Positions 12,566-25,870 of a DNA stretch of 64,000 nt are shown here, one piece after another. The stretch's first letter is position 1. Each line of letters opens with the position of its first letter. The translations under genes were made by a program, and so were the position numbers. Below the pieces are notes generated by a model. That model was given only the letters and a program-made list of their open reading frames with translations. It searched no databases and had not been told where the DNA came from. The stretch is from Candidatus Altimarinota bacterium (GTDB lineage Bacteria; Patescibacteriota; Gracilibacteria; BD1-5; UBA2023): assembly GCA_028714815.1 (NCBI GenBank), contig JAQTLR010000002.1:124001-188000 (forward strand). The letters run 5' to 3'.

Positions 12566-13105
12566 TTAATATTGTGGAGTACATGATGACCAAAACACTC
12601 ACCCCCCCTGTCCACAGTTACCACATGTACTTACATTACTACATCATTGTCCGGTTACATTCGTCGATCTCCATAAAGGGGGTTGATTACCATTACACAC
12701 ACAACTATATCCTGTGATCACCGGAGGTGCAATCGTAGCACCAGCGGGACCTTGTGGTCACTGCGGACCTATAGGACCTTGCGGTCAGACAGGACCAGTA
12801 GCGCCATTCGATCCACTCGGTCCCGTAGGTCACTGTGGACCGGCTGGAGCTGTCTCGCAAATCTTGGTAAAATCAGCATTATATCCTCTCAGGTATTGTC
12901 CGCCCGGACAGGCTCCTTTAATTTTGTTGAAATAATCCGTAAACTTTCCACCAATAACCTCTGTTCAGCCAGGAGTACCGGATGGCCACGACGTCATCGC
13001 AAGAACCCCAATGCCCCCGGCAAGAAATATGACAAAAAATACTACAAAGAAAAAACTCTTAAAAGCCTGCTCTTTGATAGTCTCTATTTTCTGAATGATT
13101 TTCAT
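12566..13105 (-). CDS. Membrane-anchored collagen-like protein with Cys-rich C-terminus (179 aa)
   Basis: The gene is visible only if TGA is Gly, since several TGA codons fall on the Gly of G-X-Y triplets. The product has a short cytoplasmic start, one membrane span (about residues 14-34), a conserved block (GGKFTDYFNKI...CPGGQYLRGYNADFTKIC), about 12 collagen triplets (GPQGPTGPSG...), and a C-terminal Cys-rich module with about seven Cys. The topology suggests a surface rod with a disulfide-stabilised tip, possibly an adhesin. Paralogues are the gene directly upstream (13177) and the one at 43199. It ends at TAA. Confidence 0.8.
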
Positions 13106-13176
13106 GTTGCATAATGATAGGGCTAAATATTCTCTCTTTTTCAAGGCAGTGCTGTCAGAAACGAATCGACGGATTA

Positions 13177-13560
13177 TTATGGACCCTGTGGTCAGACAGG
13201 GCCTATAGGTCACTGGGGTCAGACAGGGCCTGTGGAACCATTTGCCCCATTTGGTCATATTGGACCTTGAGGTCACTGAGGACCGGCTGGGACCGGACTG
13301 CAGATTTTATTATAGTTCGCATCATATCCATCCAAATATTGTCCAGACGGACAAGAATTCTGGATACTATTGAAATAATTAGCGAATTTTCCCCCTACTA
13401 TTTGTGTTGATGGTGCCATAGGAACTCATCCAGGACCCGTAGGCCATGTGATGGCAAATGCCCCAGTAGTTCAGACAATGGCTGCAAGAGAGAATACTGC
13501 CAATAAAAATCCTCCAAAAGCCTGCTCTTTGACTATCTTCAGTTTTCAGGATATACCCAT
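13177..13560 (-). CDS. Collagen-like membrane-anchored protein, shorter paralogue (127 aa)
   Basis: Same design as its neighbour: a membrane span at about residues 15-38, then the conserved block (GGKFANYFNSI...CPSGQYLDGYDANYNKIC), then about 12 G-X-Y triplets with many TGA-coded glycines. It stops at TAA inside the collagen region and lacks the Cys-rich tip of the 12566 gene, so it is either a short form or 3'-truncated. The two genes lie in tandem 71 bases apart on the minus strand and look like a recent duplication. Confidence 0.72.
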
Positions 13561-13686
13561 ATGAAAAAGCTTGCGAAGTAAAATACCCATCTTTTTGAGA
13601 GATGAGTATAGCATTTTTTTCCGGTAAGTAAAATTTTATATTTGAATTCGTGAATGCATGATTTATGATATTAAACCATGCCACTC

Positions 13687-15256: not shown

Positions 15257-16009
15257 ATGCAAACCATTCTTCAAAAACTCGAACCCATCCTCGGTGCTAA
15301 GCAAATCCCTTCTCCAGAAGAAAAGAAGCTCTTTCAGAGAACTCAAGACTTCATATGATATATCGGATGGATTCCAGGACTCCGTATGGTCGCGGTTTCC
15401 AATTCCCTCGCCATGTATGCGACACACGAGAACTCCGATATCGATCTCTTTATCATCACTGCTCCGCATCGGCTCTGGATCGTACGCACGCTCGTGCTTC
15501 TTGTGGCGACTCTTCTCCGGGTACGTGCCAAGCCAGGCGACGAGGCCGGAAAGTTCTGTTTTCCGTTTTTTATGACGGAAAAAAACATGAATCTGAAAGA
15601 GATCGCCCTAGAAGATGATATCTATCTCGCCTATTGGATCCGGACACTCAAACCTATCTATAATCAGGACTACACCTATGGACGGCTGATGGAGGTGAAC
15701 CGGGATTTTTATGAAAACACCCTCCGGATACATCCTTCCGAAGAAGAACGCAGTGCCCTCCTGAGAGAAAATAGGACCTTTCTCGTACTGACTTGGAAAC
15801 ATCCATGGGCAACGAAGCTCTGAATATTCCTCTCTCCCATCCTCTCTTTCAAGGATATGATTCTCGGACTTCTATCGAAGTGGTACATAACCAAAAAAAT
15901 CCCCTCCGGAAATACGGAAGGAATCATAATGAATGATGATATGCTAAAACTCCATTTTACCGATCGTCGGAGGGAGATTCGAGATCAGATTATGGGTTCT
16001 ATTAAGTAG
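15257..16009 (+). CDS. Nucleotidyltransferase-fold protein (250 aa)
   Basis: The protein has a minimal nucleotidyltransferase motif, SNSLAMYATHENSDIDLFIIT (residues about 46-66): the helix, then D-x-D of the pol-beta-like fold. It is followed by hydrophobic and basic sequence, and the rest resembles no enzyme I can name. TGA at about 15350 and 15822 read as Gly. It ends at TAG 16007-16009, overlapping the end of the convergent NACHT gene by 8 bases. Its last ~40 bases, encoding EIRDQIMGSIK, recur in altered form at 21990-22033, which may mark a site of island insertion. Confidence 0.75.
15972..15988 (+). repeat. Left copy of 17-bp direct repeat flanking the NACHT island
   Basis: GGGAGATTCGAGATCAG occurs here, within the 3' end of the nucleotidyltransferase gene, and exactly again at 21990-22006. 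Sequence beyond it remains similar at the protein level (IRDQIMGSIK versus IRDQVIASVSGQ). Confidence 0.7.
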
Positions 16010-19000
16010 TAATTATAGCTTTTAATCACATGGACTCATAGAGAGTTGTTACAATTTTGATGTTTGATTCAATTAAAAGGGTGGTTAGTTCGCTAGACTT
16101 AACCCTATCTCCAGAAGCTACTCGCCTCATATAACTATACATGAACTTATTCATAACATATGTTGGTATGGCAAAAACCTGACGTGGCATCATTTTATTA
16201 CCGAGCCGCCTGAAAGCGTTGAATTCACGACAAATCGTTTCTGTGCGCTCTTCCTTCTTGGAGAGATAATATACGTCATCCGAGATGGCGATATCGAGTC
16301 CGACATATTCTGCCCCATTCGGAGTCTTCATCTCCACAATGAGATCGACCCCTGCAAATACATCATCCGAGTCGCTCGTAAGGGATACGGAAGCCTCTAT
16401 ATGATCGGATCGAAGCATATCTTCGACGAGATCGCGTATCACTACCTCCACAAGGTTTTTGAGATGATAGTTCGGATCGCTACGGAATTGCTGGAACAAC
16501 AAAGCCCTTTCTGGGCTTATCTTCCAATTCGGCGCCTGATAGGATCGGGATTGTACCTCTTCTAAATACCACTTATTTATCACTTCTGATTCTTTGTATT
16601 CTTTTTTTCAAAGTTTCATACTTCTATAATTTCCACTTACAGCACTCTCCCAAAAATTTATCTGTTTCGCAAGAGTCTTATTGTATTTTCCTCTAACTTT
16701 TTTTATAGAACTACACAATGTTTTTCCTGATAGTTTATACAAAACCTCCAGTTTATATAAAATCTCCAACCCTACGAAAAACCACTCATTAGATATAACG
16801 TCTACTTCTTTTCATAAAAATTTCTCTAATTCATCCCACCTCTCCTCTTTTGCGAGTATTTCACCATAAAACAAGACTACCGGACGAAATTCCCGCCAGT
16901 CATTCCAGTTTTCGAGCTTTTTCTGGTCCCGAAAATCATAGATTTCCTGATTTCACTCATTCTTTGGCATCTCTGTGAGATGTTTCGCCAGAAAGAATTC
17001 ATAGAACGATTTGTGGATGAAGTCGTATGATCCGCTTTCCGTGCTCTTGAAGAGAATGGACAGATTTGCATCGAAAAACTTCTGGTCTATTTTTGTATTC
17101 TTGGTGTCCGAAAATATATCGAAAGCATATTTTCCGAGTCTTTCCATAAATATCTCGAGCATCGTTTCGGATCAAACCGATCCTTTCTGATCCATTTGGT
17201 GCTTCGCGAGCACGAATCGCACAACGCTCTCATACAGATCTGCATTGGTCCATATCTGGTCGAGCGGGAGTATATAGTAATCATTCATCCATTTTTTTTC
17301 GTCCTCTGTGGCGTTCGCAAGGAGGGTAATCAGGTTCAGGAGGAGTGGATTCCCCTTGATCTCATTCGCGAGTCCTTGATTCTTAATCCATTTTTTTACC
17401 TTCATTGCCTTGACTCAATCCCCCTGAAATCTCGACTCGATATATACATCCATATCGATGGCAGTAAAATACAAAACACAGGTTGTGTCATTGGGACTGA
17501 AAAACTCGGAGTGCCGGGTAGTTATGATGCTCCGTCCTGTGAAGCCACTAAACAGGCCCTTTATCTTCTCTCGTGTCTCCGGCTTCGCTTCATCGACTGC
17601 GTCGATACACACAAAAACATCCGGACTGTCGAATAATCCGTCGATATCTCCCATCCTATCATCGAACTCCTTCGCTCGGACGAATCGCACTTCTATATCT
17701 TGCTCCAGAGAGAAGTTCTTCACGAGTTCGGAGAGATAGATCGATTTTCCCTCTCCCACATGAGCACGAACGACAAACTTGGTATATTTCCCTCCCCCAT
17801 CGAACATATGGGGATGAAAATCCTTTTGCACCAGGGATGTATCTTTTTTGTTATTATCCGACTCAGAATCTCGTTCGTTTTTCGGTTCTCGTTTCTCTTC
17901 ATAGTACAGCTTCCTATCCGACACCGCACCTTTCTCTCCATTCTTAATCAATGGATCAAGTGAGTTCGATTGCAAAGTCATAGCCTCCTTGTAGGCAATC
18001 CTTGCCCGCTTCAAAGAAGCGTAAGAATCTTGCTGTCATTCTCTCGAAAATAACTCCCCCTCCTCACCGTTCCATATATCCTCCCGACTTATGAAAAGTT
18101 TCCGGAGAATAGTTCGTATTTTCGGGTCTTTGACATTCTGGAGAATGAGAATTTTTTCTTCAGCTGATATGGTTGCAGCCTCGGAAAGATAGTATCTTTC
18201 GATAGTGTTGTAGTCTTGGAGTCTAATGAGGTTGGCGAGGGAGAATACCCGTAAATCCACAGGTAAACCGAAATTCTCAAAGTACCCCTTAAATTTCTCC
18301 GGCTTCTCATAGAAAAATCTATTTATTTGATTTTGTGCTTTTTGGGGAGAGCTTGTTGTTATTATATCGTTGTTTTCTTTCCTGTTTATAAAGCTTGCGA
18401 TCCCTTCCATATTAGAAGGAGTTATCTCTATTTGCAATCCTCCTATTTTAAGTGGATGATTAATGGATTTCTCACAGTAATCTATTTGAAAATATGAGGC
18501 TTCTTCAAATATTGCCTCATTATCCTCATGGGTTCGATCCCTATCTGACTTAAGTACGTCAAATCATTCCGCGTATGATCTATTTCAGATAATCACGATT
18601 GTTTCATAATTTCATTGAGTTATATCAAAGACATCTTGCACTGCTTTTTTAATTTCAGTAACCTTATCAGCATCACTCAATCATCTTTCGTAGTTTTTAT
18701 TGGATCATGGTAAATTTACATGTCAGACAAATCAGAGACTTGGGAAAGTTTCTGATAAATCTTTCCCCGTAAGATTAGCACGTCCTTCTTTGCTTAAATC
18801 AAAGAAAAGAGCAGTTTTTTCTGGACTGGAAAATATTGTCTCATACAATTTCTTTACCTCATCAGGAAGTGTCTTAAATTCAGGAATTATCCGAATAATA
18901 TTCCCGAGTCTTTCTATTTTCGTATTGTTTTCTTTCTCGTCCTCCTTTCATTCAAGTTCCTTTCTTCTTTTAAGACATGCTTCATATTCGTACCATTCAG

Positions 19001-19178
19001 AAGTATCTATGTATGGATAATGTCTAAGAAGATAGATACGGAGTACAGTTTCTTTTAGGGTGTTTTGTGAATTGAGCACATCAGAAACATCCTCTTTTAT
19101 ATCTGATGATAAATTATTTATATCAGTGGTAAATGAGAGTGGAGTATTGAGGTGATTTTGGTGTTTTGATATATTCAT
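16002..19178 (-). CDS. NACHT-domain STAND NTPase (1058 aa) with unique C-terminal domain
   Basis: Five track-length pieces and several shorter ones join into one frame with about 15 UGA-Gly codons and no TAA/TAG until 16002. The N-terminal region (1-~460) is of unknown fold. The NTPase core has Walker A (HVGEGKS, about 474-479), Walker B (VCIDAVDEA, about 524-532), a sensor-like GRSIITTRHSEF, NPLLLNLITLL and FIHKSFYEFFLAKHL, the order typical of NACHT proteins. The C-terminal domain (about 834-1058) is homologous to the separate gene at 22237. Prokaryotic NACHT proteins often act in phage defence by sensing and abortive response; that role here is inferred. The ATG at 19178 follows a good promoter at 19207-19235. 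Confidence 0.85.
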
Positions 19179-19206
19179 ATTGTTCCCTATATTAGTTTTC
19201 TCGTTG

Positions 19207-19235
19207 AGTATACTATACATTATGGGATTTTGCAA
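19207..19235 (-). promoter_or_regulatory. Promoter of the NACHT gene
   Basis: On the minus strand, TTGCAA (19230-19235) and TATACT (19207-19212) are spaced 17 bases apart, 29 bases before the chosen ATG. This argues against the in-frame start at 19235. Confidence 0.55.
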
Positions 19236-19282
19236 TGATTTTGACTGATTTCAGATTCTGAGGGGATTATGATTTGAGAGGA

Positions 19283-19993
19283 TTATGGGAGATTTCGAAG
19301 AGCTTTTCGGATTTCTGTGATTACCATATTTCTATACTCTTTTGATTTTGGAGTATACTTAGCCGATATATCCTCGTCACTCCACTCTTTCCATTCCCTT
19401 TCAAGTTGATCGATGGGCATAAATTCAATTCTTTTTACTTCTTTCTTTTGAAGTTTAAGTTTTTCTAAATCAACTTCGTGCTGGAGAATAAAAACTCCAT
19501 CAAGTTCATTATTATGCCAATATTCGCCATTCATTGGCATGGTAATTTCTTCACGGTATATTCCAATCATCTTTAAATCCTCCGGCATTACATCGAGACC
19601 AATTTCTTCCTTCGTCTCGCGTAGCCCTCCTGTAATGAAATCCTCCCCGCTATCAACATGTCATGCAGCGGAAAAATCCCAGAGATTTGGATAGGGCCAC
19701 TTATCAGAGGCTCGTTGCTGTATAAGCACTTCTCATCTGGAATTATAGATCCATATATGTGAGGCAAGGTGTAAGGCTCAGATATTATGTGCCTCCTGTT
19801 TTCCAATTTCTCCGGATTTCGTAAATATAGGTAGTCCATTAGCAGCAATTTGCTCAGTAAAAATATCAAGGATTTCACCAATCTTCTTTCTCACCTCGTA
19901 TATCCTTTCATTGTGCTCAGGAGAGGTATTAATACCCAAGACATCTACATAATCAGGAGAATATACCTGAGATTTGATAAATTTTGTTTCCAT
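19283..19993 (-). CDS. Nudix hydrolase, IPP-isomerase-like (236 aa)
   Basis: With TGA as Gly a single frame from ATG 19993 to TAA 19283 carries a complete Nudix box, GHVDSGEDFITGGLRETKEEIGLDV (pattern Gx5Ex7REx2EExG); the first G of the box is a TGA codon. The N-terminal half (HLASHIWIYNSRGEVLIQQR, WPYPNLWDFSAAGHV) resembles the isopentenyl-diphosphate isomerase branch (YfcD type), members of which hydrolyse nucleotide diphosphates or isomerise IPP. The substrate cannot be told from sequence. It lies between the NACHT and GHMP-kinase-like genes, all on the minus strand. Confidence 0.85.
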
Positions 19994-20107
19994 AAGGTTT
20001 TACATAAAGAATACTATTGGTAGTGTAAGTATTAAAAATCAAAAGGAAAAGAAAAATTAAAGAAAAATCATAAACTAACAGGATCCTTTGGAATAGAAGC
20101 AGAAAGT

Positions 20108-21856
20108 CTATAAGTTATTTTTTATAATTCCTATTTTAGTATTCGTTATGTCTAATTTAAGATAAAAATCATTAATACCACCCTTACACACAAAAGGGAA
20201 ATCCACATCAAGTGTTTCTTTTATAATTTTTACAAGGGGAATTACTATTTTTCAAAGCATTTCATTTTTATTGGATGCATAGCTTGAGACGGGAAATTCC
20301 TTTACAGAAACATCTTCTCATTTGCGCTCAAGTAATATTTCAAGAACTTCACTGGTGGTATTTTGTGCAGGGATTTCTTTGGAGGTAAGCCGTACTCAGT
20401 TGATATAAATCTTCTTCGAAATAGTATCAATCAAAAGTCCTTTCTGTTCTTTTTCCAAAATATCATTATGAGTACCGAGATATGAATCACCGAGATTATT
20501 TTTATAAACTACTTGATTTTTTGGAATAAATTTTGAATATATTTTATTATTAATAAATTGTTCTATGATAATTCCATCATGGGATGTACCATCCACATAA
20601 GAGCAATAGTCAATTTCCACATTTGGATAAATTTTACGCATTTCTTCGAGAGTAATATCGAGTGTATCGCGACTCATTCAAGGATTCATAATAAAAACGC
20701 ACCCCCCTCATAGCTTACTTGAATAGATTGGTAATATTCCTATATTCTCAAGCGTATTTTTTTGAAATTTCTGAAAAAGAAAATGAAACTGTTCTGCAAA
20801 GTGATTTTCCTTGGAAATAGTCGAGAGCATCTTTCTTTGGTTGTTTATGTGTTCGATAAAATTTGAAATCACTTGAAAATCAAGACCAGAGCGATAGATA
20901 TTTCGAAGAAAATAGACTGTTTTTATACTAAGGAAGCTCAATATTTGCCCATAAGCATTTGTAAGAGTACTAGAGTCGGAGAAAGAATCGAAGAAATATC
21001 CGGACCGATCTTGTAAAATGTCTTTTCTTATAAAATCACTATACTTTTCAAAACCTGAAAAGTCAGATTCCTTCATTTCCTCAATCTGTTTTGAACTTGT
21101 TTCAATTCCAGTGAAGATTACCCCATAATCAAGGGGAAGTTCTCGTTCCGATAAACTACATGTATCCAAACACTGGACAGGAAGGACTCAGACTTCTATT
21201 TCCTCTATAATATCCTTCTCTCCTTCGGATAGAAATTCCTGACAATACACAGACAAAGGGGCTCCTGTGCTCGAAAATGTGCTTCTAATTGCCTGAGAGA
21301 TGGTATTTCCATATCGAGAAATAAGAGACAAAGACCATGCAAACTTAAGAATTTCCCTAATTTGAGTTCACTGTTCGAATTCAGAATAATTTTTAAGAGC
21401 CTCTGATTCAGTTTTTCAATAAAATAAATATAGAGCGGTTGATAAGATAGCAAAGGATGTATCACTAAATCAAAAAGAGTGACCTCGTGGTATTTCTGAA
21501 AGGATGGATATAGTAACCCCCTCGATCTTTCCGTTTTCTGTTAAAAATTTTTGAATTTTTTCTCTTATCATATCCTCTTCTTTGATTACCTTTCCATAAG
21601 AGATAGACTCTACTGACTTCTTTAAATTATTAAAAAAGACTACATCGGTAAACTCTATTTTTTTATTTGTATTCTTTTTTAGTCAGATATAGCATTTAAG
21701 CGGTATTTTTGAGCGTGTAAGTACATATTTTGATTGATGCAAAATCCCTTCGTTTCCCCACGACATTGAAAAACACCCACTCACCACCAGATCGTTTTTC
21801 GAGAAGAAATCTCTGTATACTTCTGGGAAATTTTTCTGGAGCTGGGTGCTGTTCAT
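20108..21856 (-). CDS. GHMP-kinase-like protein (582 aa)
   Basis: A single 582-aa frame with about ten UGA-Gly codons. The middle holds a GHMP motif 2-like stretch, EIPRGHSFGFSDTSFAILSTAL (about residues 118-139), and the C-terminal region has KLGGGCVFIMNPGM, resembling the glycine-rich motif 3 of GHMP small-molecule kinases. The usual P-x3-GLGSS loop is altered (GHSFGFSDTS), so activity is uncertain. A C-terminal extension of about 180 residues is unassigned. The neighbouring IPP-isomerase-like Nudix gene suggests an isoprenoid or sugar phosphate context, but that is inference. Confidence 0.6.
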
Positions 21857-21885
21857 ATTTGATGTGTAAGCGAAATAATACCTCT

Positions 21886-21912
21886 ATTATAACAATAATA
21901 AGAAAGAATCAA
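21886..21912 (-). promoter_or_regulatory. Promoter of the GHMP-kinase-like gene
   Basis: On the minus strand TTGATT (21907-21912) and TATAAT (21886-21891) are 15 bases apart, 30 bases before the ATG at 21856. Confidence 0.5.
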
Positions 21913-21989
21913 ATTTTCCATCTTTAAATCGAGGAAAATTGTTATTAACCTCCAGATAGAACTTAGAAGAGAGGATTATAGATAGCTAG

Positions 21990-22006
21990 GGGAGATTCGA
22001 GATCAG
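21990..22006 (+). repeat. Right copy of 17-bp direct repeat flanking the NACHT island
   Basis: An exact second copy of GGGAGATTCGAGATCAG. In the + frame it continues as EIRDQVIASVSGQ then TAG, a diverged copy of the nucleotidyltransferase C-terminus without the rest of that gene. Confidence 0.7.
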
Positions 22007-22013
22007 GTAATTG

Positions 22014-22229
22014 CTAGTGTTTCTGGACAATAGGAAAATCCTCCTCATCAAAGAGTCCTCATAGTATTTCTTGAAAATACCGCCTTCGCTTTTCTAATTC
22101 GTCGATACACCCTTCTCCGAAGAGTTCTCCTTGTCGGTTTTTCGCATGTATTTCATCAACCCCGATCTCAATTTCACGATCCCGATTGATAATATCCTCG
22201 ATAGTTTCTGGCATTTTTCTGTTTATCAT
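22014..22229 (-). CDS. Small charged protein (71 aa), unknown
   Basis: One TGA within the frame keeps this gene hidden under the standard code. It runs from ATG 22229 to TAG 22014, and its ribosome site (CAGGAA) overlaps the stop of the upstream gene at 22237, so the two are translationally coupled. The product is acidic and helical (EDIINRDREIEIGVDEIH, ELEKRRRYFQEILGGLFDE). No family is recognised. A small partner of the 22237 protein is possible from the overlap alone. Confidence 0.55.
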
Positions 22230-22236
22230 ATACGTT

Positions 22237-23028
22237 TTATTCCTGAGGAAGTAAAAGAGAATTTACATGAGATTGGATTTCTTGAAACATTTTTCAGAAA
22301 TCTTCTCTCGGGATGGCTTTTTTGGCGACTTGTATATTTGCCAACATTTCATATGCTTCAAGGAAAGTCGGTGGGTTAAGAGAACTTGCCTGTTCCATAT
22401 ATTCAGAAAGAAAAACTGCCATCCATTCTGGTCGGATCGCAAGAACGGTTCGAGGCATCCCCCGTTCTTTTCTGTGCCTCTTATAATTGTATTCCCGACA
22501 CTCCGTAATAAAAGGATAGAGCTTTTCATTTAAATACGTTGCATTTCTCGAAACCGCCAAATCCACCGAAATAGGAGTTATGACCCCATCTTTTTCGAGT
22601 TCAACAATGAAATCCGTTTTCGAAAATACATCATCGTGATCACTTGTGATAAGTACCTTTCCTTTTATGCCCTGTTTATAAAGATAGCCCTCCAGTACAT
22701 CACGCATCGCCATCTCGGCGATATTTTTGACCGGATAGTTCCGATCCTCTTTGAATTTTTGAAGTAGCTCCTGTTCCCGAGGATTTCGCACCTCCCACTT
22801 GGGAGATTTTGCTTCATAGGTTTCTCTGGTTTGTCTGTACCATACACGAATATTGTTCGCAAAATTAGCATCCGATTCAGACATAAGAGAAAATTGGTTG
22901 TTTATGGATTGGTTCCAGAAGGCAATTTCCCTATGAATATTTTTTTCATGATCCATAAGCGTATTGACAAGCGTCGATGCTCCGCGAGAGTCGATTTCTC
23001 GTTCGGAGGCGGTGAGATGAGTGTGCAT
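22237..23028 (-). CDS. Stand-alone homologue of the NACHT C-terminal domain (263 aa)
   Basis: This protein aligns over most of its length with the last ~225 residues of the NACHT protein. Shared blocks include FW, a WY pair, P-x-W...RE-x-x-LL, F-x-x-D-x-NY, the TSD-x-DDVF-x3-D-x-IVE motif, and a D-x-A-x-S stretch (VDLAVS here, LDIAIS there). Conserved acidic residues around a beta-strand pattern hint at a nuclease-like fold (PD-(D/E)xK is the nearest idea), but the diagnostic lysine is absent, so I do not assign activity. TGA at 22294 reads as Gly and the end is TAA 22237. The start is ATG 23028. Confidence 0.7.
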
Positions 23029-23056: not shown

Positions 23057-25870
23057 TTAGGAAAGATACTGCGCTGGGGTTTTTATACCCAATTCTTCCA
23101 ATCTTGAAAGAGCTACAGATTTAGGGAATCCATTTTTCTCAAGCCTCTCAGCCATCTCTTTAAGCGCTTCACGACCATGAAAGAAATTCACATCACTTCC
23201 AATTCCTCGGAATGCCGTAATGAGTGTCTGTTCTTGTTCTGGAGTTACTGGTGTCCTAAAAGTGATATCATACTTTCCATTTTTTGAGACGATATCGAAA
23301 GCATCTTCCTTTCCAATAGTTCCTGAGGCTATGGCTTTCGCAATGATATCTTTTTCATCCTGAGAAAGGGTAACAAACCGTTTCTGAATTTCGGCAGTCA
23401 CAAATTGTCCATTCTCATCGATGACCCCTTCCTTTTTCCACGAAGCTAACATATCTTCCTGCTTATGTTCCTTTCATGTATCCCAAGCGATTTTCCCAGC
23501 AACGACCAGAGCAACAACCACAGCAGTGACCCATCCTCATCTTTTTGCAAATTGCGCCAATTCCTTTGTTTCTCCAGCTTTAATTGATTTTAAAAGTCCA
23601 GCAGATCACTTTGCCGCAGCCGTTCCGGTTTTACTGATTCCTCCAACAAAATCCACTACCATCGTAACTGGTCTTCCGATAAATCGAGCTGTTTCTAATA
23701 TTTTGTTTGAAGAACGGAGGATTTTTACAACTCCCCACGCATCAAGTGCAACCATTCCTGATGCTGTTACAATATAACCAGTGCTTGGCATTCCAGTCTC
23801 CTTATTAAGAGCACTTCCTTCCCTGAGGAAAAAATACTCCCCAACAAAAGGTACAAACATACTGAATCCTTTTACAAGCGCAGATAATTTTTCTGAAGGA
23901 GTGTTTCCTTCTGCAAGAGCTCCTCCTCCAGTAATAACCAGAGCGATATTTGAGAAGAATCCCTTTACAAGGTTGGGGGATTCCTGAACAAGCCGACTCA
24001 ATACTCATTTGAATTTATCAACCTCATTTGCTTGAACCGAAAGAATCGTTTTATTTGCAATCCCTGGAAGCGTTTCAAATCGTCCAACATTTTTCATCTG
24101 AGTCCATATCTCTCCAAGGGTAGAACCGTTATTTTTGACAGCCTCTCCAAGTCCTGTAAGAACTGACTTTGCTCGTTCGTATGTTTCTGCCCTAAAGAGT
24201 TTCGGATCCGCATATGAACCCTTCGCCCATTTCTCCGCACCTCCCATAAGTTTTGATACATCCGTAAGACTGTGATCTTGACTCATTTTCTGTATCTCTG
24301 CACCAATTGTAGGAGCATAACTATGAAGAGGTTTGTTCGTATCAGAAATAATCATCCGTATCGCTTCGATGGAAGACTTATGAATATCTACACTTACTTT
24401 TTCCAGGCTCTCAAGATTCTTGAGAAACTCCTGAGATGAAGCGGATTTCTTATAAAGATCTGTAATGAGTGTTTTAGTATATACTTCTTGCATAATGACT
24501 CGAAGTTCACCTGCCACAGTATTGTTTGTGTCCCCCAGCATCTGAAGGATTACTTTTGGTCATTCCGCAGCCTTATCATATTTTCCGAGAAGTGCATTAT
24601 ACCCACTCTTGAGAGCATCCCACCCAACTCGTTCATTCCATGTTGGATACATGGTCATGAGATTTGTGAGTCATCCGGCAAATACCCCTGTAAGATAGGT
24701 GGTAAGTCCGAATCGATGATATACTGTGTACCCCAAAACCTCCTTTTGCTGAGGAGAAAGATTGGAATAATCCTGACCCAGTTCTTCGATGGACATCTCT
24801 CCAAAAATCTGATCGAGTTCACTTCGTCCAAAACCAAGGAGCGATCGACCGGTTGCGATACCAAACTGAACAATACGATCCGTTCCGGCCTTGATCTGCA
24901 TAGCGATGGCTTCTTTCGGGATAATTCCTTCGGAAACGAGATCAAACATAAAATTGAGAGAAGCCTTTCCTCCAAGTACCGCCCCGTCTAAAAGATAGAC
25001 TGTTTCACCGTCCTTGTAGGATCCAATTATATTCTTTGCATTTGCGTCAATAGTTGTGGAATATTTATTCCATACCTTCTCAAATTTCTGAGCTTTATCA
25101 GAGTCTTTAAAATTCACTCCCCATTCTTTCGAGAGTTTATCCATAAAAGCTTGTTTTTTCTTACTGACAGCTTCTTTGAGCTTATCAGTATTTCCTAGTT
25201 CATTTTTTGCTTTATCCAAACCGTCTTTCATCGCTCATTCCGCCGTCTTCTCCAATGTTTTTGCCTTCTCCAAATCCGCCTTTGGTACGAAAAATCCAAC
25301 TATTCCCGAGAAGAACTTGATGATTCCGGCAAGAAAAGCATAGATTCCACCCTTTGCCTCCAATCCTTCCGCCATGGCATCCATCTTGACCGCAAGCCCT
25401 GCCATCGACCCTATTTTTTTAGCTTCATCCACTATTCCCTCAGCTTTTTTCTTTGCATCAGCAATACTCTTAGATGATGCAAGTTCTTTCATTTTATCAG
25501 CAGTTTCTGTGCCAAACTCTTTTGTTTTTTCGGCCATTGCTCCTGCACCTGATTTCATAGAATCCATATCCATTCCGTCAAATGCCTTCGCAATAGTACT
25601 TTCTGTACCGGTCATTTTTTCTATGAGCATTTTCATCTTTGTCTTATCCTGGACTGTCATACCGACCTTCATATTATTGAATGCTTCCTTGGCATCCAAT
25701 TTAGAAGTCGAAAACTGCTCAAGCTTAGTAAGAAGAACATTGGCGTCCGTTTTTTCTTTCGGAGCAAGATTCTCCATACCATTTTTAAGAGCATCAAGCG
25801 CATCGCGAGTGGATGCTTCCATATGAGGGGTTTCTGGGAGAAATTCCGGAGTTTTCATAATATCTGCCAT
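23057..25870 (-). CDS. Very large membrane-associated protein, unknown (937 aa)
   Basis: Five pieces in one frame join across UGA-Gly codons. The N-terminal ~170 residues are rich in A, K, M and E and helical (coiled-coil-like). A hydrophobic hairpin follows (GGIYAFLAGIIKFFSGIVGFFV, about 180-200), then long helical and mixed regions. Late hydrophobic stretches include LVKGFFSNIALVITGGGAL (about 640) and VTAVVVALVVAGKIAW (about 790). No enzyme motif is seen. It follows the 1092-aa gene in the same direction, after a terminator-like hairpin, and both look like lineage-specific envelope proteins. Confidence 0.7.

Follow-up and report, generated by a model that had tools for sequence, protein, structure and literature searches.

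Probable insertion of a 6-kb block with a NACHT-type gene into the 3' end of a nucleotidyltransferase-like gene in a TGA-recoded Gracilibacteria genome

Introduction

Insertion at the end of a gene is an ordinary route by which islands are gained. In islands and integrative elements that enter gene 3' ends, the direct repeat at the edges is part of the gene end itself, the element restoring that end on one side while the former end persists on its far side. A second point of reference for the locus treated here is the bNACHT family of antiphage proteins, described as carrying an N-terminal effector and a C-terminal sensor (PMC12169576).

Here we analyse a stretch of 64,000 nucleotides (contig JAQTLR010000002.1, positions 124,001–188,000; hereafter the window) from a Candidatus Altimarinota bacterium of the Gracilibacteria, part of a 1.2-Mb assembly, in which the long genes are open only under genetic code 25 (TGA = Gly). 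A segment of 6,018 bp with genes for a NACHT protein, a Nudix hydrolase and a GHMP-kinase-like protein lies there between two exact copies of a 17-bp sequence, one of them in the last codons of a nucleotidyltransferase-like (NTase) gene. Insertion of this 6-kb block into the 3' end of the NTase gene is probably the best explanation of the arrangement; the cargo, and the fusion of its NACHT protein to a domain (here called X) that also occurs next door, are unusual. The name 'nucleotidyltransferase' is one we presume from a sequence motif and from a first-pass annotation of this DNA made from the letters alone; Pfam gave no match for this gene, nor for the GHMP-like gene (P0004), P0005 or P0006. 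In window coordinates, the features are:

15257–16009, plus strand: NTase-like gene (P0001; 250 aa, code 25), the target gene, whose 3' end holds the near repeat copy
15972–15988, plus strand: near 17-bp copy, coding for EIRDQ in the NTase tail; judged the original copy
15989–16009, plus strand: new NTase tail, IMGSIK and stop; probably arrived with the insert
16002–19235, minus strand: NACHT/STAND protein (P0002; 1077 aa), with an RH..P-type N-terminal domain, a putative STAND NTPase and an X domain instead of a long tail
16002–16700, minus strand: X domain (X2), the C-terminal end of the NACHT protein
19283–19993, minus strand: Nudix hydrolase (P0003; Pfam NUDIX, E 4e-17)
20108–21856, minus strand: GHMP-kinase-like protein (P0004; 582 aa), of a conserved family
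21990–22006, plus strand: far 17-bp copy
22007–22033, plus strand: putative old NTase tail, VIASVSGQ and stop, antisense to the 3' end of the small gene, as in the relative G005
22014–22229, minus strand: small gene (P0005), which comes after the resident X gene
22237–23028, minus strand: resident X gene (P0006; 263 aa), in a clade with the X gene of G005 (95/95)
23057–25870, minus strand: P0007, whose homologues in six family genomes stand directly opposite the NTase end; the other edge of the variable locus

Results and discussion

A repeat of the NTase end at both edges of the segment

The sequence GGGAGATTCGAGATCAG occurs exactly at 15972–15988 and 21990–22006 as a direct repeat, as the first-pass annotation had reported. 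With up to two mismatches allowed it is found at seven places in three of the seven genomes of the genus, only the window pair being exact; elsewhere in the window there is no further copy with three mismatches or fewer. For direct repeats of at least 17 bp, a Markov model of the window gives an expectation of 0.55 over the whole window and of 0.05 for those spaced within 7 kb; the window in fact has four pairs within 7 kb, the NTase pair counted in. When the 3'-terminal 70 bp of the NTase gene were set against 9 kb of simulated downstream sequence, the longest exact match was at most 14 bp in 2000 runs, as against 17 in the window, and of 90 NTase loci followed by 1.5 kb or more of sequence, that of the window again had the longest match, the runners-up reaching 15 (AT-only) and 13. 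Because none of the 2000 simulations and none of the other 89 loci equals it, the repeat is unlikely to have arisen by chance.

Another of the four pairs (13061/13516) falls in adjacent similar genes at 12566–13614 on the minus strand, which contain collagen-like GPQGPQ stretches (Pfam Collagen 25.3 bits, just below the cut-off).

The near copy is judged to be the original because its position is in the NTase gene's coding end, which is conserved: the tail DRR.EIRDxI is largely conserved in same-genus NTases with readable ends, that of G004 being the most divergent. The far copy, read in the EIRDQ frame, has a stop codon just upstream and then eight codons to the next stop, with a 20-bp overlap with the 3' end of P0005. 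IMGSIK would have been brought by the block and VIASVSGQ would be the former NTase end, in which case the uninterrupted end should read EIRDQVIASVSGQ and directly overlap P0005.

Could the arrangement instead be an assembly chimaera, two sequences joined through the 17-bp match? No point in favour of this was found in the assembled sequence, and it is scarcely credible: the reading frames of the NTase and NACHT genes meet at the junction in a clean 8-bp overlap, an X-family gene adjoins the NTase gene in an independent genome, and assemblers usually need an overlap longer than 17 bp.

The segment also differs from its surroundings in composition, and its description in the first-pass annotation as AT-richer and UGA-rich is borne out. 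Its three genes have GC contents of 0.392, 0.378 and 0.329, against a gene mean of 0.448 (standard deviation 0.049), and TGA encodes 28 of their 106 glycines versus 135 of 1316 in the other genes of the window (p = 8e-6). Given 28 TGA-coded glycines in these genes, the donor would itself have read TGA as glycine.

The same site in relatives

Homologues of the NTase gene are present in 22 of the 27 family genomes, including five of the six other genomes of the genus, and what faces its end varies. The first-pass annotation had proposed looking for relatives without the island, and one such site is found in G005, where opposite the NTase end lie one X gene (251 aa) and a small gene, the latter running antisense over the NTase tail with its 3' end; the NACHT, Nudix and GHMP genes and the second repeat copy are all absent there, and four other window genes follow further out in kept order. 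On the reading of the X tree given below, G005 would therefore represent an empty site for the 6-kb segment. In G001 a P0007 homologue faces the NTase gene at a distance of 69 bp, with no X gene between. The site in G002 is faced by the end of another gene, the contig ending about 330 bp further on; G004 has no P0007 in the 2.4 kb read and a RelE-like gene about 0.9 kb off (Pfam 22.3 bits, below the cut-off of 27); and in G006 the contig end falls inside the NTase gene.

Across the family, a convergent P0007-like gene lies within 70 bp of the NTase end in six of the 21 other NTase-bearing genomes (G001, G007, G017, G018, G019 and G026, from five genera). The P0007 profile was built from these same six genes; the BLAST matches are independent of it. 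The remaining family genomes have other genes, or none, at the NTase end. We infer that P0007 originally faced the NTase gene and that gene turnover takes place at their junction. No GHMP, Nudix or NACHT gene was found at the NTase site of any relative with a readable site, and hence no relative with the same three genes in this place but lacking the second repeat, the case that the first-pass annotation had named as refuting an insertion.

These distributions also bear on whether the block might be ancestral at the site and have been lost in G005, G001 and others, perhaps through deletion across the repeat. Deletion between 17-bp direct repeats would indeed be expected to restore an empty site. 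With P0007 directly facing the NTase gene in six genomes of five genera, the module found at other loci elsewhere, and GC content and TGA use unlike those of the neighbours, such a history is nonetheless very improbable.

One candidate for a further occupied site was rejected. The NACHT gene of G002, 101 bp from a contig end, might have adjoined that genome's NTase gene, 331 bp from the end of another contig; no overlap was seen between the two ends, and other genes lie beyond the module. A few kilobases from the G002 NTase gene are genes for Cas12a (NCBIfam TIGR04330, 847 bits, cut-off 300), Cas4 and Cas1 (L018:5113–11407), so that in a relative this neighbourhood carries other defence genes.

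The X family and two layers of insertion

The last ~220 residues of the NACHT protein appear to be a second, foreign copy of the domain of its neighbour P0006. X2 and P0006 are 31% identical over 192 residues (E 7e-31), and X2 and the X protein of G018 54%. In an eight-row tree P0006 is grouped with the X gene of G005 (clade support 95/95), and X2 falls outside that clade, its closest rows being G018 and G017 from a different genus; several inner branches of this tree are open and those of P0006 and G006 are long. Its eight rows are among the 15 of an order-level tree that was discarded over misread frames (at least G066, G065, G056 and G067). It is the tree, not identity, that would unite P0006 with G005: P0006 matches the G005 protein in 32 of the 62 columns towards the N end and in 64 of the remaining 185, X2 in 86 of 172, so that raw identity would place X2 closer.

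Because P0006 groups with the G005 X gene and X2 falls outside, a two-layer order of entry can be proposed, a prior layer that the first-pass annotation had missed together with the X copy at the end of the NACHT protein. The junction of the NTase gene and P0007 would be a small insertion hotspot in this Gracilibacteria genus, with P0007 facing the NTase end as the starting state. An X gene and its small gene would have entered between the two in an ancestor that the window genome shares with G005. In a later event, the 6,018-bp segment (the NACHT gene with its X domain, the Nudix gene and the GHMP-like gene) would have entered the last codons of the NTase gene, between P0005 and the NTase end, leaving the 17 bp that code for EIRDQ at both edges. 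The segment would have given the NTase a new end, IMGSIK and stop, with the conserved part of the tail kept, while the old end stayed beside P0005. The donor would have used TGA for glycine, and its sequence probably included an end like that of the NTase gene. The same picture would result whether an enzyme supplied in trans recombined the two at their shared 17 bp or a donor molecule, circular or broken, crossed over through short homology.

Two other histories have to be weighed against the X tree. In the first, the insertion is real and the 17-bp match coincidental, the true edges lying elsewhere, for example inside the NACHT frame, where a tail-less GHMP–Nudix–NACHT module would have fused to the resident X gene. 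X2 does occupy the position of the G005 X gene relative to the NTase gene, the other modules read have long tails of their own and no X, and the window contains several 17-bp repeats; but the tree assigns the resident lineage to P0006, not to X2, no simulation reached 15 bp, and both repeat copies sit at gene-end boundaries. We regard this history as unlikely. In the second, the X gene and NTase tail were duplicated in tandem within the lineage, a module then entered between the copies, and the NACHT gene fused with the second X. That would account for both 17-bp copies lying downstream of X-family sequences; with the two X sequences so dissimilar and not sisters in the tree, and an exact 17-bp relic not to be expected after such divergence, it is decidedly improbable.

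Small frames lie 3' of X in G005, G007, G008, G006 and probably G017, with some likeness among them (G007–G008, E 7e-8; G005–G017, E 4e-4); P0005 has no significant match to the small genes after X in relatives. At a guess, X and its small gene might be a toxin–antitoxin-like pair. A distant member of the X family (E 5e-24) is found on another contig of the same genome (G000:C4; L061, L068) and stood beside G004 in the discarded tree.

What the X domain might do is suggested only faintly by its predicted fold. It has no Pfam or PDB sequence match of note. The X2 model (pLDDT 68.9, 3 sequences) consists of a helix, a strand, a short helix, two strands, a helix and a strand around invariant acidic residues. 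Its weak matches include PaqCI (Z 5.3), BsaWI (Z 5.1), Hjc (Z 4.8) and MspJI (Foldseek E 0.01), all Z below 8, and the same Z and E range is reached by Prp8 of spliceosomes, chimallin, a SUMO protease and viral endonucleases. In the X alignment D119 and D136 are invariant, and the position where a lysine is expected reads D-x-A (A138, first sequence). Because folds other than those of bacterial nucleases reach the same range, the reading of X as nuclease-like, with a restriction-endonuclease-like fold, stays weak.

The cargo genes

P0002 matches nSTAND_NTPase5 at 21.3 bits (E 2.5e-4), below the curated cut-off of 34, while its homologue at L064 exceeds the Pfam NACHT cut-off (28.7 against 26.7 bits); over the NACHT part, P0002 shares 51% identity with the G002 protein. 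Long C-terminal regions are present in five full-length relatives, TPR-like only weakly in L066, and the X domain was detected in none of 15 scanned GHMP loci. The window protein thus seems chimeric, the long tail of its relatives apparently lost and X2 gained. Conserved RH(Y/F/L)P and GNRSY-like motifs mark the N-terminal region across the family; they look to us like those of a degenerate histidine phosphatase, a likeness with no library match that we do not put forward as a claim. A histidine-phosphatase-family gene lies near the G075 module (L064:3365–4942).

The best NCBIfam kin of the Nudix protein P0003 are isopentenyl-diphosphate isomerase models, below cut-off. In the GHMP-like family, Pfam GHMP_kinases_N matches one of six members, weakly (E 0.026); P0004 is 36–44% identical to GHMP-like proteins of several genera, about equally distant from each. 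This even distance, set beside the 51% identity of the NACHT part to that in G002, suggests shuffling. By eye, the C-terminal third of P0004 has a winged-helix response-regulator likeness that no library match confirms.

GHMP-like and NACHT genes form a conserved pair in related genomes. They stand side by side in 10 of the 15 scanned neighbourhoods (G002, G008, G018 and G031, both cut, G020, G033, G054, G068, G075, and G498, with the NACHT core only); in the others (G025, G029, G032, G069, G460) the GHMP-like gene has no detected NACHT partner. In G020, G031 and G068 the pair has a Nudix gene before it, the order there being Nudix–GHMP–NACHT, versus GHMP, Nudix, NACHT in the window. Counting every kind of GHMP relative, 53 of 353 genomes of the class have one, as do 10 of 379 in an even sample of the phylum, the window genome being counted in both. 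The NACHT, GHMP and X proteins have no match in the 2023 PADLOC library, and we found no literature joining Gracilibacteria with NACHT. Carriage of the module by phages was considered and set aside, no relative having been confirmed in viral contigs searched with the GHMP alignment or with the X alignment.

How the segment might have moved

Several observations weigh against insertion of the block at the NTase end. Homology between the two edges stops sharply at 17 bp, with none beyond on either side: the copies agree at 8 of the 21 nucleotides 3' of the repeat, as well as 14% of random pairs do, and at 7 of the 30 nucleotides 5' of it, which is the chance level, so that the relation the first-pass annotation saw between the protein ends beyond the repeat falls away. 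There is, as it had stated, no integrase among the three genes, which are NACHT, Nudix and GHMP-like only, and no inverted repeat of at least 9 bp was found between the segment edges. Other GHMP-bearing loci are not regularly flanked by direct repeats. The G005 NTase differs from that of the window at one third of its residues, and the empty site is thus not from a close strain. Finally, a purely foreign insertion leaves it as an unexplained coincidence that the insert should bear an X domain right beside a resident X gene.

Flanking repeats were also sought at six more loci, five with a GHMP gene and one with an X gene. No bracketing direct repeat of at least 13 bp was found at G020, at G008 or at the tight edges of G075, and none at the X locus of G005; G075 has an AT-rich 17-bp pair at its wide edges only, and on contig C10 of the window genome, where a GHMP gene stands alone, the locus has a T-rich 17-bp pair. 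A 19-bp pair at G068 was rejected as a sign of regular bracketing, its motif occurring at eight places with two mismatches or fewer and a second 19-bp pair lying in the same locus. The motif in G068 (16–19 bp, AAAGACAAAAACTGAA; L063:6370, 7719, 14176) lies between genes of an AT-rich genome, flanks the module and is possibly promoter-like.

The island at a gene 3' end proposed by the first-pass annotation is supported by the repeat of the gene end and by the G005 site without the island; a site-specific mechanism is not supported. The segment itself carries no integrase, so any route of entry is conjectural; one Phage_integrase match (C6) and three Resolvase matches (C1) were found in the genome, all off the window contig. 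A bolder proposal, which we hold to be rather doubtful, is that of an integrase-free, non-autonomous cassette: the GHMP-like, Nudix and RH..P-type NACHT module would move among TGA-recoded Gracilibacteria by way of short target-gene ends, and its NACHT tail would have been swapped for the X of an X/small-gene cassette using the same hotspot, giving a new immune-type receptor.

Comparison with known systems

The locus offers a readable case of immune-like gene blocks entering very small recoded genomes without visible mobility genes, at a site that is filled differently among genomes of one genus. It resembles islands at gene 3' ends in its edge repeat of the gene end, its kept end and old end, its foreign composition and the empty site in a relative; it differs in having no integrase or mobilisation genes and an unusual protein gene as target.

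The weak fold matches of X2 include many restriction-endonuclease-like chains, and in this it may resemble the PD-(D/E)XK nucleases; X lacks their canonical D...(D/E)xK site, however, and the comparison rests on a low-confidence model with Z below 8 and no sequence match.

With the bNACHT proteins the window protein shares a putative NACHT/STAND NTPase core, a multi-domain build and a patchy distribution (PMC12169576). It has no counterpart of the C-terminal sensor region given there for bNACHT proteins (PMC12169576): where its relatives have a long C-terminal region it has the X domain. It differs further in its RH..P-type N-terminal domain and in the GHMP-like and Nudix genes alongside. The conserved GHMP-like/NACHT pair is one without a match in the 2023 PADLOC library, with a C-terminal part that can be exchanged, and if the X domain is a nuclease, its fusion would represent a domain swap that arose naturally in a protein of the NLR-like kind.

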